This document shows positions 35,669-53,704 of a DNA stretch of 64,000 nt, one piece after another. This DNA is from Acetobacterium sp. KB-1. Its GTDB lineage: Bacteria > Bacillota > Clostridia > Eubacteriales > Eubacteriaceae. Made by a program: the position numbers and the translations under genes. The stretch lies in contig NZ_CP030040.1 in NCBI RefSeq assembly GCF_003260995.1, positions 680,578 through 744,577 on the forward strand, in the 5' to 3' direction. The notes beneath the pieces are model-generated. The model had not been told where the DNA came from and did no database searches. It saw only the letters and a list, made by a program, of their open reading frames with translations. Each line of letters starts with the position of its first letter. Within the stretch, counting starts at the first letter, position 1.

Positions 35669-38224
35669 TCAATCCTTTTTAAAATTCTTTTGTTGCCGTT
35701 GCACCGGCTGCGGCCGGGAATGACTGTCTTTTTTTGGTCCAATCCCCTGAGTAAAAGCACAACCCTTGTGATAATTAGAGCAACCCCAAAATTCACCATG
35801 AACACTACGGCGAATCACCAGGCTGCCCCCACATTTGGGGCAGATCTGCTGCCGGGATTGCAGCTCACTGGGAAAATCAGCCATCAACTCTTTCACAAAG
35901 ACCGACTTGTTACCATCTTGAACCAACAGCCAAGCCTTTTTCTTCGTCCGGGTCATGGCCACATAAAACAGGCGCCGTTCCTCCGAATAAAGATAATCCT
36001 CGGTATCGTCAAGCAGCAATTGAACCACCGCATCATTTTGAATTTTGCTCGGAAAACCATAGCTTTTTTCTTTATTATTTAGAATAAAAACATAGTCCGC
36101 CTGTAAACCTTTGGATCTATGAGCCGACAAAAATTCCATCTGTAAATCAGTTCTGGACGGATAGCTGACCTGAGTCTTACCGCCTCGATTATCATACTGG
36201 CACTTAAACGGCGATTGGTCAAACAATTTAATATCATGATTATAACGACCAATAAAAAAGACACTGCTATTTTGGGGCAGCTCCATAATGGTCGCTTCCA
36301 TAAATGTTACCAGACTTCTTTCATTGTGCCCTTCAATCAGACCCAGTGAAAACTCACCCTCTGGATGGGATCGATCACCCGCCACGGCACTCAATTTCTT
36401 TTTGATATGCTTGGGGTTTTTCATCACAAAATGGCCGCTGACGTCAATCAAACTCCTGGAAAAGCGGTAGGTGGTTTCGATCTTGCTGGCTTCCGCAGCC
36501 CCCCAGTAGCTTTCAAAGTCCAGAATATAATTGATATCACTGCCCGCAAAACCATAAATACTCTGCCAGTCATCCCCGACACAAAATAAACCAAAATCCG
36601 ACTGATTGCGCATCGCTTTCAGCAGGTTGTACCGGGCCCGGGAGATATCCTGATACTCATCCACAATCACATAGCCATAATGGTGCCGATTCTGGCCACT
36701 GATCACATATTTTGTGGCCAGATTAATCATATCGTTAAAATCGATCTCATTATTTTTTTCGAGCTGGGTCTGATAAGCTTTAAAAACCGGTTCAATCAAC
36801 TCAATGATCCGGTAATTACTGCGTAACTGATGCCCCTGATGGATGCGGTTTAATTGATAAAGCTGATCAAAGAGCTGATTATTAATCTTCACCAGGTTGA
36901 TCACAGTTTCAAACAATTGTCCCAGATTCTCGAAAAAATGACCCTGATATTTTTTGATCTCAGCCCACAATTCAGCATCTGATTTGGGCTTAAAGACCAC
37001 CTCGGCGGCAAGCAATTTTTCTTCCAGCACCTGTATCAGCTTGCCGTCTAAATGGTCATAGGCATAGAGCTCCAGCATCGTAGTATTGTTTTCGGCATGG
37101 ATCTTGCGTTTCCACACCATCCCTTGCTGATAGCTTTGGGTGGCAGTTTTGTTGGCCTTAGCCTTAAAATAATCGGGTACCTGCCCCTTGCGGTCAATGC
37201 CAAAATACTCAAGGTAGAGATCCGCATCCGGCAAATAGAAATCTGGAACATATCGGGCATACTCGATGGTTGCGGTATCGGTCTGGTAAGGGCGTTCATA
37301 CTGGTAATTAATGCCTTTTTGATACAGATAATTGGCGATTTCCATTTCGCCATAACTTTTGACCAGCTCATTTTTCAGGGTCACCGGCTGATTAACGGAC
37401 AGATAATCCTGGTACTCCGTCTGGTCTTTAAAATCAAAGGCTGACTTTTCTCTGATCCGATAGAAGCTGAGATATTGGATAAATTTTCTCAGGTAAATCG
37501 GATCTTTGAGCAATTGATTGAGGGTTTCCTTAACAAAGGTTGACAGATTGATCTGAGTGATGTTTGGCTTGACCCCATTTACTGCCGTGATGATATTCAT
37601 CCCCAGCTTGTGGAAGGTCATGGCCGCGATGTTTTCGCCGGTTTCTTTGTTAATCCGCTGACACATTTCGGTGGCCGAGGCGTTGGTAAAGGAAAGTACC
37701 AGAATTTCGGCTGGTTTGTATTTTTCCGCTTTAAGCAAAAATTTGATCTTGCCAATCACAGTGATGGTCTTTCCGGTTCCGGCGCCCGCAACGACCTGGT
37801 GATTGCGACCTTCTTTTAAAATACAGGCCAACTGCTGGGCGTCGAGGTTTTTCCCTTCAATCGGCAGGATCATATTTTTTATATTTTCCAGCCGCGCTGT
37901 AATGTAGGCGTCGTTGTGTCGATTCACCTCATCCGCCAATTCGGAGAACCGTTGCGAAAAAGCCGCGATGCGCTCAAGGGTGTTTTTTTCCGCGGCCGTC
38001 ATTTGCCTAGCCGTTCGAATGATCCCATCGCCACTGCTTAAGTAACGCCACTGATATTGCCATTGATCTAGTTCAGACGCATCAATATAGTGATCTGGAT
38101 CGGCAAAGAGGGCATCCAACGAAAGTGTTGCGGTATTGAGTTCAGTGCTGATGGTGTCATTGTGACGATTGGCATGGTCTTTCTTGCGGCGCCGTTCAGC
38201 TAAGAACTTTTTTAAGAAACACAT
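35669..38224 (-). CDS. UvrD/HelD-type superfamily 1 helicase with embedded nuclease-like domain and zinc finger
   Basis: 851 aa. Walker A GAGTGKT near 147, VDEYQDIS near 525 (Walker B), GDDWQSIYGFAGSD, TYRFSRS, SAHRSKGLQADYVFIL and RRLFYVAMTRTKKK are SF1A helicase motifs in order. Between helicase motifs, about residues 285-400, lies an insertion with GEMEIANYL, PDFYLPDADLYLEYFG and QGMVWKRKIH, a PD-(D/E)xK-like nuclease pattern (Glu, Asp, Glu). The C-terminus has a topoisomerase-type C4 finger (CPKCGG...CSNYHKGC). Closest named relative is DNA helicase IV. Likely DNA repair or defence; it sits 0.8 kb from the defence island. Confidence 0.85.
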   Translation of the reverse strand: MCFLKKFLAERRRKKDHANRHNDTISTELNTATLSLDALFADPDHYIDASELDQWQYQWRYLSSGDGIIRTARQMTAAEKNTLERIAAFSQRFSELADEVNRHNDAYITARLENIKNMILPIEGKNLDAQQLACILKEGRNHQVVAGAGTGKTITVIGKIKFLLKAEKYKPAEILVLSFTNASATEMCQRINKETGENIAAMTFHKLGMNIITAVNGVKPNITQINLSTFVKETLNQLLKDPIYLRKFIQYLSFYRIREKSAFDFKDQTEYQDYLSVNQPVTLKNELVKSYGEMEIANYLYQKGINYQYERPYQTDTATIEYARYVPDFYLPDADLYLEYFGIDRKGQVPDYFKAKANKTATQSYQQGMVWKRKIHAENNTTMLELYAYDHLDGKLIQVLEEKLLAAEVVFKPKSDAELWAEIKKYQGHFFENLGQLFETVINLVKINNQLFDQLYQLNRIHQGHQLRSNYRIIELIEPVFKAYQTQLEKNNEIDFNDMINLATKYVISGQNRHHYGYVIVDEYQDISRARYNLLKAMRNQSDFGLFCVGDDWQSIYGFAGSDINYILDFESYWGAAEASKIETTYRFSRSLIDVSGHFVMKNPKHIKKKLSAVAGDRSHPEGEFSLGLIEGHNERSLVTFMEATIMELPQNSSVFFIGRYNHDIKLFDQSPFKCQYDNRGGKTQVSYPSRTDLQMEFLSAHRSKGLQADYVFILNNKEKSYGFPSKIQNDAVVQLLLDDTEDYLYSEERRLFYVAMTRTKKKAWLLVQDGNKSVFVKELMADFPSELQSRQQICPKCGGSLVIRRSVHGEFWGCSNYHKGCAFTQGIGPKKDSHSRPQPVQRQQKNFKKD

Positions 38225-39046: not shown

Positions 39047-40225
39047 TTAAACTAGGAGTCCTGCTATATGACTTCTGATAACACCATTAAGCATGCTGTA
39101 TCTATTCTTTAGGTATGATTTTGTAGTTAAATCATCTACTTTTCCATCGTAATTCGAAATGTATAATTTTGCTTTTGCTTCAACTGTCAAGCTTTGTGCA
39201 TAATCATGAAGACTTTTATCTGATATATCTCTATTTGAATTTTTTGTTATTAACACAAAATTCAAGGGAGAATTATAAATTGAACTATTTTTATTTCTAA
39301 GATCTTTCGTAGAATCTCCGACCTTCGTTGCTGAACCTAAAGGTATTATATGATGGGCTTCAAGTTCATTTTCTTCTTCCGCAAAAACACTAACAAGTTT
39401 ACTATTATCAAACATATCACGATATGTTTGCGCTAATAAGTACTGGCAAAAGAAATTACGCAATACAGTTTTTGGATAACGATCTTCATCCGCATACTCT
39501 AACAGTAAAACACCTTCGTCGGAAAAATATTTTGTTTCCAAAACATTTTTCATCATTTTATTCAGCCAATCAGCGTTACTTTTTTTTGTAAATTGTCTCA
39601 CCATTGCCTGTAAATTTGTAATCATACGAACATTCTGATCTTTGTCATATTCACCCGAAAAAATGGCACTCCAATACCAAGCTTCCAATTTTTTATGAAC
39701 CTGTTTATCATTGAACCACGTATCATCAATGAAAACTGTTGAAACTAAAACAATCATAAGTGAATAATTAATTTCCTTAATATCTCTAATACCACACCGT
39801 GTATTAAAAAAGAACATTGCTCTATCTATAGCATCACAAATAATTTCGCACTTGTCATCTATGAATTTCGGATTCATATCTAATATTTTATTTCTTTTCA
39901 TATGATCTATTCTAAACACATCAGCAGTGAAGGTTAGATTATTATAATATAATGAACAAACGTTTAAAAAGACATCAATATATGTAGTCGATATAACATT
40001 TTTGCTTAGGTCATAGCATTTTAATCTAATTGATGCGTTGTAATGTTCATTTTCAATGCTATTTTTTAATAAATTTTGAACTCCATCAGGAATCACGTCG
40101 ACATTATAAGTTCTAGGTTTTCCAATATTTTCAGCAATACGATTGTAAAAATTTGTTTTACTTACAGTCGCCACTCTAGCCATCACTAGATCAAACGTAT
40201 TTAAACTAATTCCACCACGATTCAA
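39047..40225 (-). pseudogene. DUF262-HNH effector (SspE/GmrSD-like), 3' part with HNH nuclease
   Basis: 392 codons in the frame. It starts as the second half of a DUF262 domain (ENLNRGGISLNTFDLVMARVA), continues with a helical middle, and ends with a HNH-like nuclease: EAHHIIPLGSATK...NFVLITKNSNRDIS (DUF1524-type layout). No good start codon exists; the first codon used is a TTG inside the conserved NRGG motif. The upstream part lies in another frame, offset at the (AT)5 run 40232-40241. Removing one AT joins the frames to read RAIDIYENLNRGG, the expected family sequence. In SspE such an HNH domain nicks DNA. Confidence 0.8.
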
Positions 40226-41193
40226 ATTTTCATATATATATCTATTGCTCTTGCTCTTTTTGATTCTTCAACGATAATCTGGTTTAATGTCATATTCCGT
40301 ATGCATGAATCTAAATAATCCTGCAAATAACGACCCCATAGCTGGCTACGGTTTTCTAACTCCTTCATAAATTTTGTATAGTCTTCTTTGATATCATTTC
40401 GTTCTTCTTCAATAAATATTTCATCAATAAAGAAATTTTTATCTTCGATAGTTGTTTTTTTTGTAAACTCATGAATAATTTCATCTTTTATGGAATCAGA
40501 AATTTTCTTGACTATTCTTTGATAACACAAAGTGATTACACCACTTCTTTTCTTTTCAGTAGGTATAATCAAATATAATGGTACCAAATAACCATCTTCA
40601 TTGGAAATGCAAAAATCATCAAGTTCAATCCCGAGGTCTGTATCAGGATTATATGGCTGACAATCATTCTTTTTAAAATATTTAACTTCGACAAACGGAA
40701 GAATATTGCTTGATAGAAAATCGGGTTCCTCCGAATCTGGGCGTGTGATAGGAAAATCCAATTCATGAACCCCAAAAATATCTTCTTCAGACCCACGCTT
40801 ACACCATTTTGGAATTCTCAAAAAAAATCTTCTTTTTAATGATGTAGAAACTAAATCACTAATCCTCTTACAATCATCAAATATGGCATTTGAAAAAACA
40901 TTTGTTAATACAGTTATACGTTGCTGGCCATCTAGCAGAAATTAAGTATCAACAGATAGCGTTGTTATATCAATTTCTGTTTTATTACCTATTGCTTTTG
41001 AAGAAAACTCATCTGGTTTAGATTTTAATAGTAATATACTGCCAATAGGCATTCTAGACAAAACTGATGCTACAATTTTACGCTGTTGCTCTTCATCAGT
41101 CCACACAAATTGTCTTTGAAAATCTGGTAATAGTATTTTATTTTCTTTGATATCTTTGACTATATCACTAAAATTTGTTAACACACTTGCCAT
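40222..41193 (-). pseudogene. DUF262-HNH effector, 5' part, with in-frame stop
   Basis: From ATG 41193 (AGAGGTG upstream) the frame gives a DUF262 N-terminus: LLPDFQRQFVWTDEEQQRKIVASVLSRMPIGSILL. A TAA at 40944-40942 stops it after 83 codons. The same frame then continues FLLDGQQRITVLTNVF..., where DGQQR is the NTPase motif of DUF262. It stays open to 40222, where the (AT)5 slip occurs. Without the two lesions the protein would be about 715 aa, the size of SspE/GmrSD enzymes. Last gene of the phosphorothioation array. Confidence 0.8.
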
Positions 41194-41346: not shown

Positions 41347-41844
41347 TCACATAAATGTCTCAAGTTTATACGTTTGCGTAACTTTTAGAATTTTTGCTAA
41401 GTAATCATCTTTTGTTGACGCTTCTTCAGTAAATTGATCATATAACCATTCAATGCCGCCACGCATATATTTATGAAATAGTTCCATATTCGCAGCTAGT
41501 TTTTCTGAATCTTCATCCTCTTTAAATGCTCGTTCAATTCTTTCATCGTCTGAAAGATTTGATGAATTTTCGCTTAACATGACTAGCCGAAAAACATTAA
41601 TCAAATTGTCTTGTTGGCTGATTAGTTGCTCAGCAAATATTGCTAACTCATCGTTTGAGATAGTGTCTTCTTCAGATTTCAAGTTAAAATTTACACCAAT
41701 TAAGGGTGCAACAAGATAAATATCAATATTTGCTCTAAATACACCAGCAATTTTTGCATCTTTATTCTTCTTTAATGTGGTCAAACTTAAAAATTTTGCG
41801 TAAGTAGCATGCTTACCTTTTAACATGTATTGTTTTTCAAACAT
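41347..41844 (-). CDS. 165-aa protein of the phosphorothioation array
   Basis: No family recognised with confidence. N-terminal KGKHATYAKFLSLTTLKKNKDAKIAGVFRANIDIYLVAPLIGV looks like a helical, partly hydrophobic region. The middle is acidic (SDDERIERAFKEDEDSEK) and the end helical (YMRGGIEWLYDQF). It overlaps the ATPase gene stop (TAATG), a sign of translational coupling, with AGGAGG before the ATG. Position and size suggest a partner of the DndD-like ATPase, comparable to DndE or one of SspF-H, but similarity cannot be judged by eye. Confidence 0.75.
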   Translation of the reverse strand: MFEKQYMLKGKHATYAKFLSLTTLKKNKDAKIAGVFRANIDIYLVAPLIGVNFNLKSEEDTISNDELAIFAEQLISQQDNLINVFRLVMLSENSSNLSDDERIERAFKEDEDSEKLAANMELFHKYMRGGIEWLYDQFTEEASTKDDYLAKILKVTQTYKLETFM

Positions 41845-43895
41845 TATAACAACCTCCTAATCGATGAATTTACGTCAGAATTATTATTTTTCTCGATCAT
41901 ATAAGCACAGCCCACTTTATCATCTAATGAAGCCTTCGCAAATTCCCAATCCTTGTTCATTAATATCAATACTACTTGCTCTGAAACTGCCGGTAGAATT
42001 TTTGCTATATTGTTGATGTGAATCTCATCAACATTCGAGAACGGTGCATCCATTACTAATGGATATGGTTCAGTTGTAATTGCTAATTCTCCATCTACGC
42101 CGATTATGACATTCGGATCTTCATTTTCTTTTCCAGTAGTTGTTCTTGCTTTTATTCTCGCCATATCAACAAGACCTGCAATGAATGAGAAGTTTTTGAC
42201 AGATTCTAATCCCTTGCTTTCTTCTGTCTCCATTTCTTCATCACCAACCATTGTAATTAAATTTATCTGATACTTTTCATTAATAGTAATTTTACGTGTC
42301 CCGTGATACATTTGTTCAAAGATATTGTTTACACTTTTAAGGAGACGATTCTTGACTTCAGCCTCTTGTTTATCATAACTCTGCTTAAACCACTGGTATA
42401 CCGCCTTTGAGTATGCTATACTTTTTGTTATTTTTCTATTTTTTTCAGAAACTACTGCTATACCAGCAATCTGTTTTTCATTATTTACAATTTCTGTTTC
42501 TAACGAACTTATATAACCCGTAACAACAAGTAAAATATCCCTTTTTTTTCTCAATTCAATCTCATTTTTTTGGTAGTCATCTTCAATTTTTGCTACATCT
42601 ATCATATTTTTTATTCGCTTACTAATGTCAATTAGACCTTCTTTTTTTTCTTCCAATAGAAGCTTATTTTCTCGAAGCTCAACGTAGTCGTCTTTGATCA
42701 CACTATCAAACCCTTCAGCTTCACGTTCAATACGTTGGTAGGTTTTTTTATATTCTCTTAAAATTGTGCCCATATGCTGAGGTGGTAATAAACTTTTTTC
42801 ATGCAAAACTTTTTCTTTTGCACCTTCATTTTTCGTTAAATCACATCCACAAATGCAATTCCCTCGATTTAGAATATGGTCTATTGACGACGCTCTCATT
42901 CCTGGTATACCTTCACCATCCTGTTTAGCTTCATCAATGGTTTTAAGTGCTTTCTTTATTAAAGGTAATGCGAAATAACCCATCGATTTTGTACTGAAAT
43001 CATTGATTAATCGATTCTCATTTTTAATGATATTTCCTGTTACTACATTAATATCACGCTCTAAATTCGTTTTAATCGTTTGATTTGCTTTTACCTCGCG
43101 ATTTTTGAGAAGTAGTTCATTAAGTTCTATTTTTCGTCTCTCGAAAAACTCAATCTCTTCTTTTATTATAACCTTTCTATTTTTGTACCCTTCAAGTTTT
43201 TCTTTTGCATTTTCAACTTCAACTTTCAACTTATTAAACTTTGTGTCATTGCCAACATCTAACTCCTTGCTTAATTTGGATGTAACCGATGCTACTTTTG
43301 ACGGATCAAGCCGATCCATAGCAGTGCTAATAACATCTAATCCCATTAGTCCACGTACTGCATCAACAACATCTCCTTTATTATTTATATCTGCTATCCT
43401 CTCACCATCAAAGAAAAAATAATCTGACAGAGATTCCGGAAGTATCTTATTAATTGTTTCTTTCATATGTAAATCGTATTCACCTTCGATACCTCTAGCC
43501 TTTGGTATACTTTGCATACCTCCTGTGGTTTCTTTAAATTGAACATTCAATTCTGGTTTGCTGGCTTTTATTTTTTTGGATTCGTTTTTATAAAAAGATT
43601 GAGTTCTCCTGATGAAATATTCCTTCTGTTCATGCAATAAAATAACTTCTACAAAACATTCTTGAGTAGAACATACGCTCATTGATTTGCAAACTTCTAA
43701 ATTTAAAACCTCCTGTGATTTGAATGAGGTATTATTATATAGGCACCAGTTAAACGCTTGAATAATTGTAGTTTTACCGCTAGTATTAACACCTAATATA
43801 ACAGTTACATTTTTTTCACTATCTGTTGAGAATTCAATAACATGATTGCCTTTATATTGGCGGAAATTATTTATTGTTATACTTTTAATTATCAT
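41844..43895 (-). CDS. DndD-like SMC/Rad50-type ATPase
   Basis: 683 aa. Walker A GVNTSGKTT (35-43) in an N-terminal half of an ABC ATPase head (IIKSITINNFRQYKGNHVIEF). FFDGERIADI (161-170) is the motif seen in DndD proteins. Long coiled coils flank a zinc-hook-like CICGC at 347-351. C-terminal Walker B/D-loop is VMDAPFSNVDE. DndD in dnd systems has ATPase and possibly DNA-structure activity. Here it could belong either to modification or to restriction; its place behind the helicase favours restriction. Overlaps both neighbours. Confidence 0.85.
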   Translation of the reverse strand: MIIKSITINNFRQYKGNHVIEFSTDSEKNVTVILGVNTSGKTTIIQAFNWCLYNNTSFKSQEVLNLEVCKSMSVCSTQECFVEVILLHEQKEYFIRRTQSFYKNESKKIKASKPELNVQFKETTGGMQSIPKARGIEGEYDLHMKETINKILPESLSDYFFFDGERIADINNKGDVVDAVRGLMGLDVISTAMDRLDPSKVASVTSKLSKELDVGNDTKFNKLKVEVENAKEKLEGYKNRKVIIKEEIEFFERRKIELNELLLKNREVKANQTIKTNLERDINVVTGNIIKNENRLINDFSTKSMGYFALPLIKKALKTIDEAKQDGEGIPGMRASSIDHILNRGNCICGCDLTKNEGAKEKVLHEKSLLPPQHMGTILREYKKTYQRIEREAEGFDSVIKDDYVELRENKLLLEEKKEGLIDISKRIKNMIDVAKIEDDYQKNEIELRKKRDILLVVTGYISSLETEIVNNEKQIAGIAVVSEKNRKITKSIAYSKAVYQWFKQSYDKQEAEVKNRLLKSVNNIFEQMYHGTRKITINEKYQINLITMVGDEEMETEESKGLESVKNFSFIAGLVDMARIKARTTTGKENEDPNVIIGVDGELAITTEPYPLVMDAPFSNVDEIHINNIAKILPAVSEQVVLILMNKDWEFAKASLDDKVGCAYMIEKNNNSDVNSSIRRLL

Positions 43896-44058
43896 TTTCT
43901 GCTGCCCTTTCTATTAAATGTCTTATCTTATCCGTCATCTGGTTATTTGTAAGTTTTTTTGTTTTGTTATTTTCTTTCTCTAATTCATAAATTCTCATTT
44001 TCAAACTGAATAACACCGTTTGATTTAGATAAGTTTCATCTTTTTCTTCAAAATTCAT
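43885..44058 (-). CDS. 57-aa coiled-coil protein linking helicase and ATPase genes
   Basis: MNFEEKDETYLNQTVLFSLKMRIYELEKENNKTKKLTNNQMTDKIRHLIERAAENDN-type composition: one predicted coiled helix, no cysteine. The frame is open to GTG 44067, but GGAGGTG overlaps that codon, and the ATG at 44058 has 8-bp spacing. It overlaps the helicase gene by 11 bp and the ATPase gene by 11 bp, so it is a real coupled gene. Could be an adaptor between the two enzymes. Confidence 0.8.
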   Translation of the reverse strand: MNFEEKDETYLNQTVLFSLKMRIYELEKENNKTKKLTNNQMTDKIRHLIERAAENDN

Positions 44059-46216
44059 ATTCGTCACCTCCTATGTAATTAAGATCATAATAATCTTCTA
44101 TTTTTTTCTGCAATTTTATAACTTCTGAAGAGTTTTCTGCTAAAGCTGCGAAGTCTTCCATACGTTCCATCTCACGCTTAATTAAAGAATATTCACTTTT
44201 TAATAATTCACTTTTGCACTTTTTTATATCTAAATCCCGAGGTAATGTTACAAAATCATAAATCTTAGCATAAGGTTTATTTTGAGCCTTTCTTAAAACT
44301 CTACCCCTTCGTTGTATATATTCTTTAGGATTTGTGCTACTAGCAAGGATAAATGCTGTTTTAATGCCTGGGATGTTAACACCTTCATCCAAACACCTAA
44401 TTGCAACCAATGCTTGCAACATTTTACCTTCTGTAAAATTAGCTTTTATAATTTCTCGCTGAACTGAGTTTTCTTCTGAGGTAAATCGAGATACCCTCAT
44501 CCCTAATTCATTGCCGAGCATATCAATAACTATTTCAATCTGTCGCTTTTCCTCTTCTTCAACCTGTCCTTCGATATAACAACTATTTTCTATTGTTGTT
44601 GCTCCACAATACACTAATATTTGATTATCCTCGGAATATTCTGATTTTATAATTTTATATAAGGCTGTTAATTTATTTCTAGCACCGGCAATTATTCGGG
44701 CTCTCTTAATTAACAACATTTCGGCTGATTGCGGCATCCCTTCGTTTTTGCCTTTACTTAATAAGATTTTTCCGATCTTTTCGGTTAATTCATTGTATAG
44801 TTCTAATTCGTCCTCATCTAAATATATTGGCACCGGATAATAATAATACGGGCAAAGTTTATCTTCTTTAATTGCTCGTTCTAATGAGTATACGATACAC
44901 TTTTCACCAAAATAGTCTTTTAGTTTTTGAGTACCATCTTCATCATAATGTCTTTCGAGAGTGGCCGATAAAGCTAAACGATACTTGAATACTTCTTTCA
45001 TACATGACAATTGCTTTTTCGCACCAAAATTGTGTGCTTCATCAACTAGAAGACAAATTTCTCCGTCCAACTTATCAATTTCTTTTTGAAAATAGTCTGT
45101 TGCAAAAGTTACGTTGGTAGTTATTACACAGAAATTATCAATAACCCCTAACTTGTAATCATTCAACAGATGTCGATATTTTTTCTTCCAATCATATGAG
45201 GAATAACAAATTAGCGGTTTAATTCCAAATGCCGTAATATCTTCAACCCATTGCTCTATAAGATGTTGATAAGGACAGACAACGAATACACCAAGTTTAT
45301 TTGAAACGCTTTTTGACAACCTTACTATTCCGGCTAAACCAGTATACGTTTTGCCTGTACCTGTAGCCATATCAAATATTCCTCGGTAGTAATTATTTTC
45401 CCAAGCGTCTATTGCTTCTATTTGATAATCGTGCAACTTAACATTCTTTGGGATGGCTGGTCCAGAAATATATGGCGCATCATCTTCTTTAACCCAGTTA
45501 TCATCTCGATATTCTAAAATATCAGTATTGTAGTTTATTACTACCTTTTTATATTTATCAATAATTTCTTGTTTTAAATCGGGAAATTCAATGATATGAA
45601 TATTTGGCTCGCGATCATTCCAAATCGAATCAAAAGCCTTTTCTTTTGCAATCACACGTTCACTTTCATTCTTGCTACTCCAGTTGCAAAATACATCAAT
45701 CGTTTCATAATTTAAATACATTGCAGTAGAAGACTCATTCATTGAGCCAGAAAAAGCGACTTTATTTTCTTCTTGATCACAAATGATGCCCATCTTTTCA
45801 TGGTACATTCCCATATTATTCTTATTCTCAGTAAATGCTATTTTTATATCTAGTATTCCATCTGATATCAGATTTGATAAAAGATTAAGGCTTTTTACCT
45901 CAAACTCAGTATGTACATCTTTAAGCTCATCCAAAATAGCTTTGTAAATGATCTTCTCTCTAATTTCATAGCCATTACGAATAGCCTCTATATCTTTATC
46001 TGATAAATATGGTGAAGCAACTATTTGAATTTTTCCACCATTTTTTATCAATCCACTTATTCCTTTTGTTATCTCAATCAGTGCTGATGATGAAAAAAAA
46101 CCAACAGCTCTTTGATATGAAATTGCTTCTTTCAATAACGGATTGTAAAAGCCTTTCACGACATTATCTAGCAATGACCGATATTCATTTTTAATTTCTA
46201 CATCTCTTAAACTCAT
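44048..46216 (-). CDS. PLD-nuclease/DEAH-helicase fusion (phosphorothioation restriction helicase candidate)
   Basis: 722 aa. N-terminal phospholipase-D-like nuclease domain (about 1-190) with HEK (139-141) and GSMNES (157-162), the HxK...GSxN catalytic set. SF2 helicase core follows: Walker A MATGTGKT (283-290), VDEAH (391-395), ALSATLER, and motif VI RRGRVLRKAQNK with an upstream LDEGVNIPG. Such fusions resemble restriction helicases, including those linked to dnd loci. Likely attacks DNA that lacks the sulfur mark (inference). Starts 24 bp after the cysteine desulfurase gene. Confidence 0.88.
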   Translation of the reverse strand: MSLRDVEIKNEYRSLLDNVVKGFYNPLLKEAISYQRAVGFFSSSALIEITKGISGLIKNGGKIQIVASPYLSDKDIEAIRNGYEIREKIIYKAILDELKDVHTEFEVKSLNLLSNLISDGILDIKIAFTENKNNMGMYHEKMGIICDQEENKVAFSGSMNESSTAMYLNYETIDVFCNWSSKNESERVIAKEKAFDSIWNDREPNIHIIEFPDLKQEIIDKYKKVVINYNTDILEYRDDNWVKEDDAPYISGPAIPKNVKLHDYQIEAIDAWENNYYRGIFDMATGTGKTYTGLAGIVRLSKSVSNKLGVFVVCPYQHLIEQWVEDITAFGIKPLICYSSYDWKKKYRHLLNDYKLGVIDNFCVITTNVTFATDYFQKEIDKLDGEICLLVDEAHNFGAKKQLSCMKEVFKYRLALSATLERHYDEDGTQKLKDYFGEKCIVYSLERAIKEDKLCPYYYYPVPIYLDEDELELYNELTEKIGKILLSKGKNEGMPQSAEMLLIKRARIIAGARNKLTALYKIIKSEYSEDNQILVYCGATTIENSCYIEGQVEEEEKRQIEIVIDMLGNELGMRVSRFTSEENSVQREIIKANFTEGKMLQALVAIRCLDEGVNIPGIKTAFILASSTNPKEYIQRRGRVLRKAQNKPYAKIYDFVTLPRDLDIKKCKSELLKSEYSLIKREMERMEDFAALAENSSEVIKLQKKIEDYYDLNYIGGDEYEF

Positions 46217-46240
46217 TATTCTACCTCAGCTAATATTTAG

Positions 46241-47407
46241 TTAACTATTATCTTCAATATAATCTAACGCCTCACCCAACATCTCAAAATCTTCTTCACT
46301 CGTAAAATAACTCACGCTAAACCGCACCGTACCGCCTGGAAAGGTTTTCAAAAACCGATGGGCAGTTGGGGAACAATGAAGCCCCGTTCTCACGGCTACC
46401 TGATGTTTATCTAACACCTTTCCGATGCTGTCACTGCCGTAACCATCAAAGATGCTTGAAACCACGCCAATGCTGTTACGCTCGTCCGGCAAAAATGTTT
46501 TGATGATGTCGTATTTTTTTAAAATATTAACCAGTTGGCTTCTGTTTTCATGTTCTTTTTTTAAAATTGCATCGATTGTTGTTTCTTCAATCCATTGCAG
46601 GGCCGCATTGAGACCGGCGATTGCCGAAACGTTGGGGCTGCCAACTTCAAAGCGTTCTGGCAGGGTTTCTGGAAGATCTTGATTAGCAGAATCCACTCCC
46701 GTACCACCGTAAAGTAAGGGTTTTAATTTGATCGAGTTATCCATAATAAACCCGCCGACCCCCAAGGGGCCATACAGCGTTTTATGCCCTGCAAAAACAG
46801 TAAAATCCGATTTTACATTGCTTAAACTTGTGTTGAGGAGACCGGCGGTTTGAGCCATATCGGTTATTGTGATAGCCTCATAAAGTTTGGCCTGTTCAAA
46901 TATTTCTTTTATCGGTGCGACTGCGCCGCAAACATTACTGCCGTGACTAATTACAACGATGTGCGGAGAGTTGTCTTGAAATTGATATTTTATTTTCTCT
47001 AAATCATAAGAAAGCGTTAATGATTCGACGGATAACTGATGTAAATCAAATTGATATGTATTGGAAAGATGATGTAAGATGCGGGTAACGGCATTATGCT
47101 CGAAGGGAGAAATATAAACGTTCATGTTATTTCTCCAGGGCAAACCCTGGAGAATAACATTTAAACTTTCTGTGGCTGATGGGGTAAGAATCACTTTCTG
47201 ATTGTGATTGCAATCAAAAAGCTTTAATAATCGTTCTCTCGTATCCTCTGCTAATAACCTTGCTTGATTGGCAAGGCGATGTTGTCCCCTTCCCACATTG
47301 ACGCCATAGGTTCGATAAAAAGAGTCCATGTACTGATATACTTTTTCTGGCTTAGGAAAGGTTGTTGCAGCATTATCAAAATAAGCTATTTTTTCTGTTG
47401 AATTCAT
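46241..47407 (-). CDS. sspA: Cysteine desulfurase, SspA/DndA-like
   Basis: 388-aa class V aminotransferase fold. YFDNAATTFPKP start, PLP-binding Lys209 in FAGHKTLYGPLG, active Cys345 in VRTGLHCSPTAHRF, His in PHIVVISHGSNVCG. Takes sulfur from cysteine as persulfide and would pass it to the PAPS-reductase-like enzyme for DNA backbone sulfur insertion. The subtype resembles group II (SufS/Csd-like) desulfurases. Its place inside the array, 12 bp after the ATPase gene, supports this role rather than Fe-S assembly. Confidence 0.88.
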   Translation of the reverse strand: MNSTEKIAYFDNAATTFPKPEKVYQYMDSFYRTYGVNVGRGQHRLANQARLLAEDTRERLLKLFDCNHNQKVILTPSATESLNVILQGLPWRNNMNVYISPFEHNAVTRILHHLSNTYQFDLHQLSVESLTLSYDLEKIKYQFQDNSPHIVVISHGSNVCGAVAPIKEIFEQAKLYEAITITDMAQTAGLLNTSLSNVKSDFTVFAGHKTLYGPLGVGGFIMDNSIKLKPLLYGGTGVDSANQDLPETLPERFEVGSPNVSAIAGLNAALQWIEETTIDAILKKEHENRSQLVNILKKYDIIKTFLPDERNSIGVVSSIFDGYGSDSIGKVLDKHQVAVRTGLHCSPTAHRFLKTFPGGTVRFSVSYFTSEEDFEMLGEALDYIEDNS

Positions 47408-47419
47408 TTTTCGCTCCGA

Positions 47420-50400
47420 TCAAATCATAGTTTCTAAGATTTCCAAAAGGATCTGCCGTTTTTCTTCTTCGGTGATGGCTTGACCCATGTCTTCGATGGC
47501 GGTGCTGATTTCATTTTTTAATTGTTTTCCCCGTCGACTTGTCTCAATCCGGGAAAAACTTTTGATGGCTTCTTCCCCATTTTCTTTACGCACGGTTAAA
47601 ACATAGTTCTCGTGTCCACTTACTTCATTACTCTCAACTGTTTCTTGATCATACTGTTCAATTGTATTTTTAGACGCATTCATCGCATTTAAAAACGTTT
47701 GAATCGTGGTCTCATTCCAATCATCAATTCTCAAGCCAACGGCGGCTTTTGACAAACGCTCCATGAAAGTGACTTGATCATTGGTGATGCTTTGTATGAC
47801 CTGAAAAACGGTTCCATTGATGCCATTAAAACTATGGGTTTTTGTATTTGTTTTTAAGGTATCAAGCCAGTCTTTTATAATTGAGATATAGGTAGAATTA
47901 TCGTTTTGTATTTCTTCGGTTTTAAATAAGGTACCTAAGTCGGCCATGAGTTTTTCTATTAAATGAGCTTTTGACTGATCAAAAATACGCTTTGACTTTT
48001 CCAAATGACTAATTACAGTAAGGCTAAATCCATCCAGACCGTAGATTGAAAAAAGTTTATCAAATAAATATTCTCGGGAATTCAGGCTTGGTTTCATCAA
48101 ACTCTGAATCAGCTTTTTGTCGACTTTATCTAAATTTTTGAAAGCATGATTGCCTAAATAAATGGTTTTTAACTCTCTGGCATATTTTGGCAAAGACATA
48201 AACCAACGCTGCATGCCCCGAGTGATGTATGCAAATGAGTTGAATTCTTTTTCTGATTCAGTAATGAATTCTGCGAATAAGCTTTCTAGTTGATTGATAT
48301 ATTCAGTTTTATCAGCATTCCATTCTTCAAGGTACGCCACATAATCAGTTGGGTTTTTATCGATGCTATTGAGTAAATCGGCGGTGATTTCCACCTCACT
48401 ATCATTGCTAAGTATAACGAGGTGTTCTTTGTATTGGTTTATTACACAGGCAATATAGATTGGTATTACTCCGCGCTTTAAACCGATGTGATGCTCAGGT
48501 TTTGTCAGTTTCTCATAAAGTTTGCCAAAGGATATTCCCTTACTATCTCCTGATTCCAGAAAAAATTGATTGATCTCGTTGACAATATTTTGCAAGTTTT
48601 CGTCTGGTAAATGATATAATTTAAGTTTAGGTATCAAGGTATAATTTTCCAAAATTTCGGTAACGATAAGAGCGCTTCTCATAAATGAAACCTCTTGCCC
48701 CGATCCTGATAAACCCAGCATGGGTTCAAGTTTAGTAGCTAATAAACCCTTAACCACACGATTTCGGCTCCGGGTGGCTACTGAAGTTAATTCGTGGTTA
48801 TTTAAAATCTCATTTTTAATAATCGGGGTTTTATGATAAATTACTTTGCAAATGGTGGACAATTGTTGGGATAGCTGAGCTTTCCGATAAAATGTTTTTT
48901 TCTCACCCTGGTAATAATAATGCGCTTCACGCAGCTCCGGTTTGGTGTAGCCCATAACAAATGCGTTTAAGGCTTCGACAAGATCATCTTCATAAAGATT
49001 GCACTCAAAGACAAAGGCTTCATCATCTTTGGCAGACTCTTTGATTGTTTTAACGGCTTGATACTCATAGGCAGTGTCATTTATTACTTTATATTTTCTT
49101 GGCAAGATAAAGAGGATGCGGGAGTCAAGCTCACCTTGTTTTAAAATTTTCGCTTCAATCGTTGGTATGATTTCTGGATTTTCTGGGATTATCCCGAAAA
49201 CGACACCATCTGCTTTCAGATCAAGTATTTTCTTTGACCAGTCATCAACGGCCAAAAATTCATTGCCATTGATAAATGTAAAATCAAAATATCGGACAAT
49301 CTCCATGTCGTCATTGTAGCTGGTTGGATAGAGATACTGATCTAATGTCATTTCTGATAAAATTGCCTTGACATCATAGAGGTGTTTATTTTTTTCAGCC
49401 AGATCCAAAATTTTCTTTCTGATATCACTGCCAATGGGACTTTTCAGTTTTAAATGTGTGGTTTTGCGACTAACATAAACCACAAATTTTTTATCTTTAA
49501 GATCGGCTAGAGCATTTCCCACTTTCTGAGCCTCGGCCACGCTATTGCCGTATAATTTCGTTATGACATCTGCTACTGGTGGCAGTTTTACAGGTTGGTT
49601 GACGATCTCAATTAAAGCGATGGTTTTAACAAGCTTGGCTTCAAGATTGTCTAAATCAAGCTGCGATAAAATACTGGCAGCCGTATTATAGACTTTTCTT
49701 ATTTCACTCGTATAGGGTTCCTTCTTTAATAGTGGTTCAAAATAGTCATACAGTTTATCCGGTGTAAGCAAAGGAAAGTTTCCCTGTTCATTTCTCAAAA
49801 ACTCACTCAAGGTATTTTTGTGATTAGACGACAAAAATGTAAATAAGGTTCGTTCATTTTGGGCAATCAGCTCAGATAACCGTGGCAAAATAAAGGTTGT
49901 CACCGGATGCAGCGGATAACACCCACTAATCACAGATTTTAAGTGATTTGTCTCCAACTCAGAGAATAGTTCTCCCACCTGGTAGTTATTTAGCAATTCT
50001 TCGAATTCATTAGAATGGGTTTCTAAGAATTCAGTTTTGAAGGAATCGGTCTTTTTAATTACGTTCGCAATGATTTCATAAATCTGCGCAAAATGATTAA
50101 GCAGCTCCACATGTTTAAATCGTTCGGAAACGCCCTTCCAACCATCTACTTTCTGCAACGGCAGCTTATCAATATAGTTTGCAATATCCTTATGCGATAC
50201 CAATAATAAATGCATCTGTTTTTCTTTGCTGCGACTGCATTTTTCAGCAAAATCCTGAAGCATTTTAATATCAGTGATGGAAGCCTTGGTAATACTGGAC
50301 TCTAGGTATTTGCTAAATTCATCGTAGACAACATAAATCCCTGCATAACCTCTTTTACAAAGGGCATCGACCACGTCGCTAAAAAGTTCAACTACATCAA

Positions 50401-51055
50401 AACCTAAAAACGGGTTAAACTGGCTACCGGAAGTCAGGGTTGGATAAATTTTTTCAAATTTTTCATAAGCGCTAACATCAAAATCACCGAGAGCCATAGT
50501 GAATTCGTCTAACGGACAGTCAATACTATCCTTAAACTGAAGGTAGGTATTTTGATACTTATTCTTCCAACGGTCGATGGCATTCAGAGCAGCCTGAAAA
50601 TGAGTATCCGGCATTAAATCTGCTAAATCTGCGAATTCAAGGGATTTTTGGAGCGCACTTAAAAAGGACTGGTTTAAACTGGTATGGCTTCCCTGAATGA
50701 CAATCGGCAATAATTTTTTATCACCATTCATATAATCAAGGGCATAGTCATACAATTCAGGTTCACACTCTTTTAAGGCTTGAAGCAAATTCTCAAAAAG
50801 AGCTGGTTCTTTTCGATAAACAAGTGCCAAGAGCACCAGGATAATCTGAGACTTTCCCTTTCCATAGGCACCAATTAAAATCCGGGCACGGTCTGTTGAC
50901 TTGTCATGGGTACTGAGTAGCAGGTCTTTCAATAGTTCGAGCGAACCAAATGTTGGAATAAAGCTCTTTATTTTTTTGTCGTTGTTCAAATCAAAAGCGA
51001 TATTTACAGCTGATAAAAAGCCACCTTCAATTTGTATATAATCAGTTAATGTCAT
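47420..51055 (-). CDS. sspC: Large P-loop ATPase, SspC-like
   Basis: 1211 aa. N-terminal Walker A GAYGKGKSQ (62-70) and a probable Walker B IYVVYDEFSKYLES near 243; the rest is mostly helical without a catalytic signature I recognise. Layout recalls the large ATPases of phosphorothioation and BREX-like systems (SspC, PglY-type). Between the DUF4007 and desulfurase genes, with 12-27 bp gaps, so one operon. Probably couples ATP use to DNA handling during modification. Confidence 0.75.
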   Translation of the reverse strand: MTLTDYIQIEGGFLSAVNIAFDLNNDKKIKSFIPTFGSLELLKDLLLSTHDKSTDRARILIGAYGKGKSQIILVLLALVYRKEPALFENLLQALKECEPELYDYALDYMNGDKKLLPIVIQGSHTSLNQSFLSALQKSLEFADLADLMPDTHFQAALNAIDRWKNKYQNTYLQFKDSIDCPLDEFTMALGDFDVSAYEKFEKIYPTLTSGSQFNPFLGFDVVELFSDVVDALCKRGYAGIYVVYDEFSKYLESSITKASITDIKMLQDFAEKCSRSKEKQMHLLLVSHKDIANYIDKLPLQKVDGWKGVSERFKHVELLNHFAQIYEIIANVIKKTDSFKTEFLETHSNEFEELLNNYQVGELFSELETNHLKSVISGCYPLHPVTTFILPRLSELIAQNERTLFTFLSSNHKNTLSEFLRNEQGNFPLLTPDKLYDYFEPLLKKEPYTSEIRKVYNTAASILSQLDLDNLEAKLVKTIALIEIVNQPVKLPPVADVITKLYGNSVAEAQKVGNALADLKDKKFVVYVSRKTTHLKLKSPIGSDIRKKILDLAEKNKHLYDVKAILSEMTLDQYLYPTSYNDDMEIVRYFDFTFINGNEFLAVDDWSKKILDLKADGVVFGIIPENPEIIPTIEAKILKQGELDSRILFILPRKYKVINDTAYEYQAVKTIKESAKDDEAFVFECNLYEDDLVEALNAFVMGYTKPELREAHYYYQGEKKTFYRKAQLSQQLSTICKVIYHKTPIIKNEILNNHELTSVATRSRNRVVKGLLATKLEPMLGLSGSGQEVSFMRSALIVTEILENYTLIPKLKLYHLPDENLQNIVNEINQFFLESGDSKGISFGKLYEKLTKPEHHIGLKRGVIPIYIACVINQYKEHLVILSNDSEVEITADLLNSIDKNPTDYVAYLEEWNADKTEYINQLESLFAEFITESEKEFNSFAYITRGMQRWFMSLPKYARELKTIYLGNHAFKNLDKVDKKLIQSLMKPSLNSREYLFDKLFSIYGLDGFSLTVISHLEKSKRIFDQSKAHLIEKLMADLGTLFKTEEIQNDNSTYISIIKDWLDTLKTNTKTHSFNGINGTVFQVIQSITNDQVTFMERLSKAAVGLRIDDWNETTIQTFLNAMNASKNTIEQYDQETVESNEVSGHENYVLTVRKENGEEAIKSFSRIETSRRGKQLKNEISTAIEDMGQAITEEEKRQILLEILETMI

Positions 51056-51082: not shown

Positions 51083-51961
51083 CTAAACCAGCGTATCGTA
51101 ATAGGTTTGTATACAGGTGGCATAATCCATATCAGTTAAGATTTTGATGACATCCAGCCCTGCCGTACGAACGACTTTGATATGACCCAATTTTTCGATT
51201 TGATACAAATGCCCAGTCAGTTCGATAATATCTAAATTAAAAACCTTTCCCACATTGCATGGTTTTCTCAGCAAATCCTGAATCCTTATTTCGCTATTAC
51301 CGTTTGTCTGTTCTAAAATCACCGCTAATACAATTAGCGAATGGAGCATATTCTTTTGTGGTTCGGTTTTACGGTAAATTTTTTCTTTTTTGTTTACTAA
51401 ATCCACTAATCCCAATTCACCGAAGGGACACTCCATATTACTTTCAGGTGACACCTTCTCAGGGTTGACTTTATGCCGGGTAACATAGGTATTTATCAAA
51501 CAGGTAAAATCATCTTCATACGATGATAATGCTGACTCCACTCCAAATTCGGTAATGGTGAAATTTGTGAGCATTGTCACAAAATCTTCTTTTTTAAATT
51601 CACTTAAATCAAATTCATTAAAAAAGTAATACCAACTGGTGGCATTTTCTTTGTTGCTTGCTAAATAATAATGCAGCAGCCACAAGGTTCCCAGTTCTTC
51701 TAGGTAGCGATCATTTTTCCAAATCAGTTCAGCTAATTCTGTAAATGTTTGTTCTCGAATGCCAGATTTAGGCTCGTTTGTTAAACCCACTGCTTGTAGC
51801 CAGTAACGTAAAGACTTCACCATATTCGAACCAATCCCTAAAACATCCATTGGATTTTCGGCTTTATTTGTAAAAACGGTTGGATTCTGTTTGACGTTTT
51901 TCAAACCTTTATACAGCCAACCTTTTCTAATATAGAATGTTTCATGTCCCCGGATTTTCAT
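51083..51961 (-). CDS. sspB: DUF4007 protein, SspB-like
   Basis: 292 aa. Starts KIRGHETFYIRKGWLYKGL and continues NPMDVLGIGSNMVKSLRYWLQAVGL, the typical DUF4007 pattern; TLWLLHYYLASN follows. SspB proteins of the SspABCD system belong to this family and act as DNA nickases in modification. Twenty-two bp downstream of the PAPS-reductase-like gene; GGAG before the ATG. Confidence 0.82.
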   Translation of the reverse strand: MKIRGHETFYIRKGWLYKGLKNVKQNPTVFTNKAENPMDVLGIGSNMVKSLRYWLQAVGLTNEPKSGIREQTFTELAELIWKNDRYLEELGTLWLLHYYLASNKENATSWYYFFNEFDLSEFKKEDFVTMLTNFTITEFGVESALSSYEDDFTCLINTYVTRHKVNPEKVSPESNMECPFGELGLVDLVNKKEKIYRKTEPQKNMLHSLIVLAVILEQTNGNSEIRIQDLLRKPCNVGKVFNLDIIELTGHLYQIEKLGHIKVVRTAGLDVIKILTDMDYATCIQTYYDTLV

Positions 51962-51982: not shown

Positions 51983-53704
51983 TTATTTTGTTTTTAAAAA
52001 CTTATCCATCATGCAACCGCCTTCAAGGTATTTAGCGGTGACACACATTTTACACCGTTTGCATTTCTGACTATCTATTTTGTAAAGATCGGCATTGATG
52101 GTGATGGCTCCAAACTTGCATAAAGATTCGCATTTTAAACATTTACGACAGGCATTATACTTTCTAATTTGATAACCAATCATCCGTTGCAGATCATCAT
52201 GTTTTTTCACGTTCATGGTCGCTATTTTAACGGCATTTTCATAACCATCCTGTTCAAAGGGCTGGATGGAAATAATGGGAATTTTTGTTTTAATATCAAC
52301 GATGATTTTTTCATCAATCAGCTTGCGGCCCAATTCATTTTTGACTTCTCCAAAAGGAATGAACATATTGATAAATTCATCAGTAATCGGCTTATTAAGA
52401 CGGTATATTTTAGCATTATTTTCGGTGGTACAATTGGTAAATTTAATTTTGACATCTTGAGCTGATTCAACCCCATTCCCGCCTTGCCTGGCCTTCCATT
52501 TACCGGTATCCACATAAACTTCAGGATCAGGCTTGCCAATTTTTTTCGCAAAATCAATTAAGAATTCACGCCATTTCTCAGATTGCTCCGGCATATATAT
52601 TTTAGATAGAAACTGTGCCCGAATACTATTGTTTGGACAACACCAGCAACCAACCCGATCATAACCCAGTCGGTAAGCATCATTAAAATCGATGTTCTCG
52701 CCTAAAATATATAACCAAATATCGATGTCTTTCCAAAAGAAAATAGGCGAAGCCACGGTTTGCTTTTGGATTTTAATAGATTCCGCATCGTCTTCGATCC
52801 GTTTATACTTACTTCGTGCTGCCGATTCGCATTTTCTGATCCCGTAAAAGGTTAAAATATTTTCATTTTTATACATATTGTTAAGGGTACGAGTAATCGG
52901 GCCAGTCTTAAACATATAGCAACACCAGCGCATCATTCGGGCTGGTGGCCCGATATCTTCACAGACTTTGAAAAAATCCTGGTCTTTATTTTTGGCGGTT
53001 TTAAAAATGGTTAATGGATTATCAACCCGAAAACGCTTAGCATATTCCATTGTCAGCGGAAACTCCAGGGTCGTGTCACCAAAAATATGGACGATGCTGG
53101 GATTGCTGAGTGCTCGGGTGACCAGATCTGCAGTAACCGTTGAATCTTTCCCGCCAGAGAAAGAAATGACGACATTTTCAATCGGATACTTTTTTACTGA
53201 ACTATTAATAAAAGCAAACGCCTCGCTCTCTAAATATTCGAGCCGCCTTTTGTTTGCGCTAATAAATGTTTTAATGGATTCATTAAACATATCGTAGGAA
53301 TTTTGAGTTTTGTAAAGACTGATCTGTTCAACCACTTCAGGGATATTTGCTTTCTCAAATTTTGTCGAGGTCAATACTTTTAACTGGCCGTCAATAAAAT
53401 AGCGATTATTGACAACCCAAACCGTTTTATTTAAATATTCTAGGGGTTTTCCTAGAATTATCTCGATTAATAAACGCTCTTCCGGGAATACCGGTCGCAG
53501 ATCTGCACCTAAATGTCGGGTTGTCTCGCCACAAAGTGGGCAACTGTTTTTATCAATTGCATTGGCTTCTTTTATGACTGGCGTTTTGCAGTTATCGCAC
53601 CAACACACTTCCACGGGCATTTCTGTTTCTGTTTTTACACCGCAGATATCACATTCTGCTTTTGGTGTTTCGGTGTTACATATTTTACACCACAAACCAA
53701 TCAC
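51983..53704 (-). CDS. sspD: PAPS-reductase-like sulfur transfer enzyme, SspD/DndC-like
   Basis: 573 aa. N-terminal zinc-ribbon-like pairs (CKIC, CDIC, CDNC, CPLC within residues 6-58), PP-loop SFSGGKDST (181-189) for ATP pyrophosphatase chemistry, Cys motifs MRWCCYMFK and VGCWCCPNNS that fit a 4Fe-4S centre as in DndC, and a C-terminal ferredoxin-like stretch (CRKCLKCESLCKFGAI...CKRCKMC). Activates the DNA backbone phosphate and inserts sulfur. First gene of the array. The GTG at 53704 lies in the GAGGTG ribosome binding site; TTG 53695 is a likelier start. Confidence 0.85.
   Translation of the reverse strand: MIGLWCKICNTETPKAECDICGVKTETEMPVEVCWCDNCKTPVIKEANAIDKNSCPLCGETTRHLGADLRPVFPEERLLIEIILGKPLEYLNKTVWVVNNRYFIDGQLKVLTSTKFEKANIPEVVEQISLYKTQNSYDMFNESIKTFISANKRRLEYLESEAFAFINSSVKKYPIENVVISFSGGKDSTVTADLVTRALSNPSIVHIFGDTTLEFPLTMEYAKRFRVDNPLTIFKTAKNKDQDFFKVCEDIGPPARMMRWCCYMFKTGPITRTLNNMYKNENILTFYGIRKCESAARSKYKRIEDDAESIKIQKQTVASPIFFWKDIDIWLYILGENIDFNDAYRLGYDRVGCWCCPNNSIRAQFLSKIYMPEQSEKWREFLIDFAKKIGKPDPEVYVDTGKWKARQGGNGVESAQDVKIKFTNCTTENNAKIYRLNKPITDEFINMFIPFGEVKNELGRKLIDEKIIVDIKTKIPIISIQPFEQDGYENAVKIATMNVKKHDDLQRMIGYQIRKYNACRKCLKCESLCKFGAITINADLYKIDSQKCKRCKMCVTAKYLEGGCMMDKFLKTK

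Follow-up and report, generated by a model that had tools for sequence, protein, structure and literature searches.

Organization of the locus

The window analysed here is a stretch of 64,000 nucleotides from the genome of Acetobacterium sp. KB-1. Its minus strand carries eight co-directional genes, running from position 53704 down to 41347 in the order sspD-sspB-sspC-cysteine desulfurase-pbeABCD with gaps of up to 27 bp, and beyond them the pieces of an interrupted nuclease gene. The features are the following:

51983..53704, minus strand: SspD, a PAPS-reductase-type sulfurtransferase with a C-terminal 4Fe-4S region, of a BrxP-like subtype (PADLOC BrxP 3.5e-80, PADLOC SspD 4.5e-13, PF01507 4.6e-31)
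51083..51961, minus strand: SspB, a DUF4007 protein (PF13182 8.8e-86; PADLOC SspB 6.5e-63)
47420..51055, minus strand: SspC, an ORC/Cdc6-like ATPase of 1211 aa (PADLOC SspC 1e-106)
46241..47407, minus strand: cysteine desulfurase in the SspA/DndA role (PADLOC SspA 6e-38, DndA 3e-35)
44048..46216, minus strand: PbeA, an HKD (PLD) nuclease fused to an SF2 helicase, 722 aa (PADLOC PbeA 1.2e-249)
43885..44058, minus strand: PbeB, a predicted helical-hairpin protein of 57 aa from its ATG (position, profile match and AlphaFold model)
41844..43895, minus strand: PbeC, a CxC zinc-hook ABC ATPase, 683 aa (PADLOC PbeC 1.1e-110)
41347..41844, minus strand: PbeD, a protein of predicted DndE fold, 165 aa (AlphaFold model, structure search and a chain of profile matches)
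40222..41193, minus strand: GmrSD-type nuclease gene, broken; N-terminal half (DUF262), interrupted in frame by a stop codon (GmrSD_N 6e-11)
39047..40225, minus strand: C-terminal half (GmrSD_C/HNH) of the same GmrSD protein, in another frame (GmrSD_C 1e-4)

The upstream four genes (53704–46241) are separated from each other by gaps of 12–27 bp, and the desulfurase gene lies just 24 bp ahead of pbeA; the pbe genes (ORFs at 41347–46216) then overlap by 11, 11 and 1 bp. An earlier note on this DNA had read the last four genes as a coupled, overlapping unit, and they are indeed all present as ORFs with intact motifs; it had also held them to be distinct from the modification genes, which does not agree with the short distance to the desulfurase gene and the single direction of all eight. 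The ssp genes, the desulfurase gene and pbeABCD look like one eight-gene run rather than separate units. Scans for sigma-70 promoters and terminators gave signal at chance level.

All components of an SspABCD modification system are found upstream of pbeA, namely a DUF4007 SspB, an SspC ATPase, a PAPS-reductase SspD and a cysteine desulfurase. The linkage to dndCDEA-type phosphorothioate (PT) genes, by which Xiong 2019 defined Pbe narrowly, is absent here, with ssp genes in its place, and the DndD model found no match in the Acetobacterium sp. KB-1 genome at E<=1e-30.

PbeA and PbeC

The largest protein of the cassette, PbeA, is a fusion of an HKD nuclease with an SF2 helicase. Besides the PADLOC model, it matches PF04851, PF00271, PF13091 and, over its helicase half, TIGR04095 (dnd_restrict_1; E 4.4e-155), where its 517 bits lie under the curated cut-off of 600; the NCBIfam title of that family is ‘DNA phosphorothioation system restriction enzyme’. 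Both the HKD motif (H139, K141, D147 and G157-S158-N160) and the helicase motifs (GTGKT, DEAH, SAT and QRRGRVLR) are intact, and they are invariant or nearly so across 15 relatives. The identity to PbeA of a haloarchaeal dndCDEA-pbeABCD locus is 29% (E 5e-101), and PbeC shares 21% with its counterpart from a haloarchaeal locus of that type. PbeC is an ABC ATPase with a CxC zinc hook (CICG at residue 346), a Walker A motif (GVNTSGKT) and a Walker B motif (LVMDAPF), all of which are kept in relatives except for the Bacteroidota clade. In that clade, the Ssp-coupled PbeC of nine loci (L105, L110, L114, L116, L118, L121, L124, L125 and L127) carries no CxC hook at the usual position, as is also the case for the Dnd-coupled L107, and the PbeB of those loci is unmatched to other PbeB, so that the whole group stands as a divergent branch.

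The PADLOC matches of PbeA and PbeC, together with their motifs, bear out the earlier reading of a nuclease-helicase and a Rad50/DndD-like zinc-hook ATPase encoded beside DNA sulfur-modification genes. That the four proteins would form a DNA-degrading complex holds as far as a DNA-manipulating four-gene unit is concerned, but whether PbeA cuts is disputed in the literature: cleavage is argued from the HKD site in Rakesh 2024 (PMC10853773), while in Haloterrigena jeotgali, where PbeABCD was described, protection was PT-dependent and viral replication was blocked with no cut viral DNA (Xiong 2019, PMC6459918).

The small proteins PbeB and PbeD

The 57-aa and 165-aa proteins, for which no family had been recognized from the sequence, gave zero matches with the single-sequence HMMs of Pfam, NCBIfam and PADLOC. 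They are PbeB and PbeD, too divergent for searches of that kind. The silence of the PADLOC PbeB and PbeD models (PDLC02708 and PDLC02758) means little, because the same models are also silent on the pbe genome of the haloarchaeon Natronomonas (L109); the PbeD model matches six of the 293 genomes of that haloarchaeal order, and both models appear too narrow.

The pbeB gene always lies between pbeA and pbeC in the pbeA loci compared, as it does here, and a GTG at 44067 would provide an alternative start, giving 60 aa. The profile of the protein matches PbeB from mostly Dnd-coupled or solitary bacterial loci at 88% (column shuffles reach at most 1.2%), and that set in turn matches haloarchaeal PbeB at 89%; Bacteroidota-clade PbeB remained unmatched against the window PbeB profile (0.2%). 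AlphaFold predicts a two-helix hairpin (pLDDT 87, helices 13–33 and 38–56), and the positions conserved in the window clade fall in this hairpin, with no disorder predicted. By profile match, shared position and predicted fold, the 57-aa protein is thus PbeB.

In the case of the 165-aa protein, the model built from 12 sequences (pLDDT 85, pTM 0.85) was compared with solved structures, and DndE entries were the only ones at Z of at least 5 (7x4e 7.7 over 110 residues, 4lrv 6.9, 5wtu 6.6). A Z below 8 is middling if taken alone, but DndE is the sole family at that level; the best Foldseek match, weak by itself (E 0.44), is DndE as well. A sequence search of the PbeD profile against solved structures returned nothing meaningful. 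The profile matches PbeD of mostly Dnd-coupled or solitary bacterial loci at 97.6%, where column shuffles reach 1.1%, and from that set haloarchaeal PbeD is matched at 93%. Compared directly with canonical DndE, the PbeD profiles give no clear match: window-clade PbeD stays at 0.8% and the Dnd-coupled PbeD set reaches 40%, and the link to canonical DndE rests on the predicted fold. Judged by this model and the profile chain, the 165-aa protein is PbeD, a DndE cognate.

The module is accordingly neither undescribed nor a variant of SspFGH or DndFGH, as had been considered: all four proteins match one described system, the very outcome that the earlier note had given as refuting its idea, and the four genes are the known bacterial and archaeal antiviral cassette PbeABCD, a CxC ABC-ATPase/DndE system. 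Its unusual combination with ssp modification genes had escaped that note.

Recurrence of the Ssp-Pbe pairing

The surroundings of pbeA were compared in 100 loci, 20 of them from an even sample of 398 genomes and 80 named, a set that is biased towards relatives of the window PbeA and includes two pairs of identical loci. The same four pbe genes occur in the same order in most of these loci, which places the gene set beyond chance. Ssp genes are coupled to pbeA in 37 of the 100, from isolates of Bacillota, Bacteroidota and Pseudomonadota, among them Anaerovibrio slackiae, Eubacterium sp. An11, Alloprevotella tannerae ATCC 51259, Hyunsoonleella flava, Chryseobacterium sp. R2A-55, Pseudoalteromonas sp. 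0303 and Alteromonas genovensis. One Ssp-Pbe operon (L058) lies on a contig binned as the archaeon Methanobrevibacter, by transfer or by mis-binning. Where the flanks are well covered (71 loci), 28 loci have Ssp genes, 14 have Dnd genes, three have a second ABC ATPase only and 26 have neither ssp nor dnd nearby.

The 398 genomes, drawn evenly across the phylum, were searched for pbeA, sspB and dndD. A clear pbeA was found in 24 and sspB in 29; 14 genomes have both (Fisher p 4.6e-12 for co-occurrence), and in 12 of these the two genes lie no more than 10 kb apart. Canonical dndD exceeded the cut-off in five genomes, two of which have it near a clear pbeA, and a divergent 25th pbeA genome (G159) also has pbeA near canonical dndD, so about two to three pbeA genomes of the sample are in this position.

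The gene order ssp-desulfurase-pbeA-pbeC-pbeD is exact in many loci, and dozens of divergent loci keep it; the cysteine desulfurase gene lies immediately 5' of pbeA in 18 of the 37 Ssp-coupled loci, and likewise in Dnd-coupled haloarchaeal loci. The order dndCDEA-pbeABCD of three haloarchaeal loci (L146, L147 and L150) runs parallel to this arrangement; in the window, sspD-sspB-sspC take the place of the dnd genes, and the junction of desulfurase and pbeA is kept. The PbeA tree has the Ssp-coupled members in three separate groups (Bacillota-centred, Bacteroidota and Pseudomonadota), which are set apart by Dnd-coupled or solitary ones.

The full-text literature on Pbe and Ssp that was surveyed, a scope outside which key subscription papers fall, yielded no account of this pairing. 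It is likely to be novel, though an earlier mention is possible; the PADLOC web-server paper has a generic ‘PT_other’ class into which mixtures of this kind could fall.

Module exchange and the downstream nuclease

Protein distances correlate strongly within the Ssp module or within the Pbe module (0.80–0.92), whereas those of Pbe against Ssp do not correlate significantly in the Bacillota-centred clade (Mantel r 0.07–0.21). The Ssp subtype changes three times on the PbeA tree, against 6.5 times in shuffles, a partial agreement, and there is a clear swap, in that L036 and L055 share 66% identity in PbeA and 71% in PbeC, yet 28% in SspC and 35% in SspB. On these sequence comparisons, the two modules partly swap partners and their history is partly separable.

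In the window, GC3 steps across the 24-bp gap (46216–46241) from 0.36–0.38 in the upstream four genes to 0.24–0.25 in pbeABCD, a step absent from the nearest relative (L035). The broken GmrSD gene 3' of pbe shares the low GC3, which suggests that Pbe and GmrSD arrived together. The three ORFs at 41193–39047 are pieces of this one nuclease: its reading is interrupted by a single internal stop, seen on read-through, and by a frame break, and the C-terminal half has 44–47% identity to residues 314–722 of intact relatives. The gene is intact as a single ORF of about 720 aa in L039 and L063, and intact copies adjoin the Ssp-Pbe operons of L039, L063, L064, L034 and L040; Pbe is independent of it, since most Ssp-Pbe loci lack a GmrSD gene. 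Past the broken nuclease, at 35669–38224, lies a gene for an 851-aa UvrD/GajB-like helicase (GC 0.45), whose membership in the operon is unsupported.

Proposed function and alternative explanations

It is probable that pbeABCD serves as an effector cassette working with the adjacent SspABCD-type PT modification genes. This view is based, by sequence or structure, on the identities of the eight genes, their intact catalytic motifs, their order and recurrence, and the partly separable history of the modules. The cysteine desulfurase and SspD would mobilize sulfur, and SspB and SspC would place PT marks on the host DNA. A dimer of the zinc-hook ATPase PbeC, together with PbeD, may clamp and scan DNA, with PbeB acting as a small helical adaptor between PbeC/PbeD and PbeA. 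The complex would stay inactive while on PT-marked DNA; where incoming DNA is unmarked, the helicase of PbeA would translocate and the HKD site would nick or block the template, resulting in a stop of replication.

The known PbeABCD partner, Dnd, places PT marks on both strands, whereas the characterized SspBCD systems mark a single strand. For this reason the reading step of an Ssp-Pbe system cannot be assumed to be identical, and the difference between single-strand and double-strand marks is the main question for it.

Under a different scheme, which seems unlikely, the cassette would mediate abortive infection: on PT loss or on sensing of a phage, PbeA would attack the host DNA and the cell would die, PbeB being a releasable inhibitor. 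The small size and fast evolution of PbeB would fit such a role, and abortive infection is proposed for CxC systems in Rakesh 2024 (PMC10853773). However, a PT-modified virus escapes restriction in the archaeal system, and there all four pbe genes are required for full protection, pbeB, pbeC and pbeD absolutely (Xiong 2019, PMC6459918); the loss of protection on deletion of pbeB agrees better with a needed subunit than with an inhibitor. The well-formed hairpin predicted for PbeB of the window clade, with its conserved positions, also speaks against a disordered inhibitor.

Of similarly low probability is that Pbe and Ssp are independent systems within a shared defence locus, Pbe using another self mark or none. 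The 26 well-flanked pbeA loci with neither ssp nor dnd nearby would agree with it, and for that reason Pbe may not always need PT; the weak Mantel correlation between the modules and the partner swap between L036 and L055 point in the same direction. Against it stand the short gaps, the common direction and the order conserved over dozens of divergent loci in three pbeA clades, as well as the clustering of the Ssp subtype on the PbeA tree. Effector swapping is moreover compatible with the use of PT marks, as the Dnd-Pbe correlation is also weak (0.107; PMC6459918). A third reading, in which a BREX type 4 or SspABCD-SspE system has decayed here and carries the pbe genes as passengers, is very improbable. 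The likeness of SspD to BrxP and the DUF262/GmrSD gene downstream would be explained in this way, but the window ORFs scanned include no PglZ, the sole PglZ match of the genome is 1.2 Mb off, and the GmrSD gene is weakly SspE-like, absent from most Ssp-Pbe loci and broken here, while the Pbe motifs are intact.

If Ssp and Pbe cooperate as proposed, the effector, known from double-strand marks, would function on single-strand ones too, and the reading step would be directly testable by a swap of modules. Wang 2021 found 2,211 of 2,678 sspBCD clusters without sspE or sspFGH, for which effectors yet to be discovered were suggested, and in Xiong 2019 (PMC6459918) 320 of 553 pbeAC were without dndCD. 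In the even phylum sample, at most 10 kb separate sspB and pbeA in 12 genomes, out of 29 with sspB and 24 with pbeA. The chances seem evenly balanced that SspABCD-PbeABCD represents a distinct and common class of PT defence, in which PbeABCD would be a plug-in able to read the double-strand marks of Dnd as well as the single-strand marks of Ssp, the module for modification would be exchanged as a block, and some ‘orphan’ sspBCD and ‘solitary’ pbeAC would be mutual partners.

Comparison with known systems

BREX type 4 (BrxP-BrxC-PglZ-BrxL) has in common with the window locus a BrxP-subtype SspD with a 4Fe-4S region, DUF4007 and a BrxC/SspC ATPase, but here separate genes encode the PAPS reductase and DUF4007, and the locus lacks PglZ; no BrxL was seen among the part of the window ORFs that was scanned. 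This identity was rejected for want of a linked PglZ, the only match in the genome lying at 1.957 Mb (G000:C1:1957664-1958185) and the window at 0.68–0.74 Mb; that PglZ gene probably belongs to a separate BREX system. SspABCD systems with SspE or SspFGH share the PT modification genes in their SspA, SspB, SspC and SspD roles, but the effector in the window is PbeABCD, to which the broken GmrSD gene, SspE-like, is an addition. An SspE system was rejected, as the DUF262-DUF1524 gene is interrupted and its intact relatives match SspE weakly or not at all; so was SspFGH/DndFGH, whose FtsK/HerA-like translocase domain (SspH, DndH) is absent from the four proteins.

The CxC ABC-ATPase-DndE systems have the CxC zinc-hook ATPase, a cognate DndE, the HKD-SF2 helicase and a small protein in common with the window operon. 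In the available part of Rakesh 2024 (PMC10853773), PbeC is a CxC ABC ATPase, PbeD a DndE cognate and PbeB a small disordered protein, and the CxC systems are coupled to Dnd genes or methylases, while SspABCDE is without a DndE cognate; relative to that account, the window operon joins Ssp genes with a DndE cognate, and its PbeB is predicted to be folded. There is also a close likeness in layout to DndCDEA-PbeABCD of H. jeotgali, with a PbeB of 66 aa and a PbeD of 152 aa (Xiong 2019, PMC6459918), where the same four effector genes follow in the same order behind a cysteine desulfurase gene and are PT-linked; the window differs in that its modification module is SspD-SspB-SspC, not DndC-DndD-DndE, and in that the effectors are distant. 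The effector cassette is therefore already known, and what appears new, with a joint function proposed from sequence, is its recurrent pairing with SspABCD genes.
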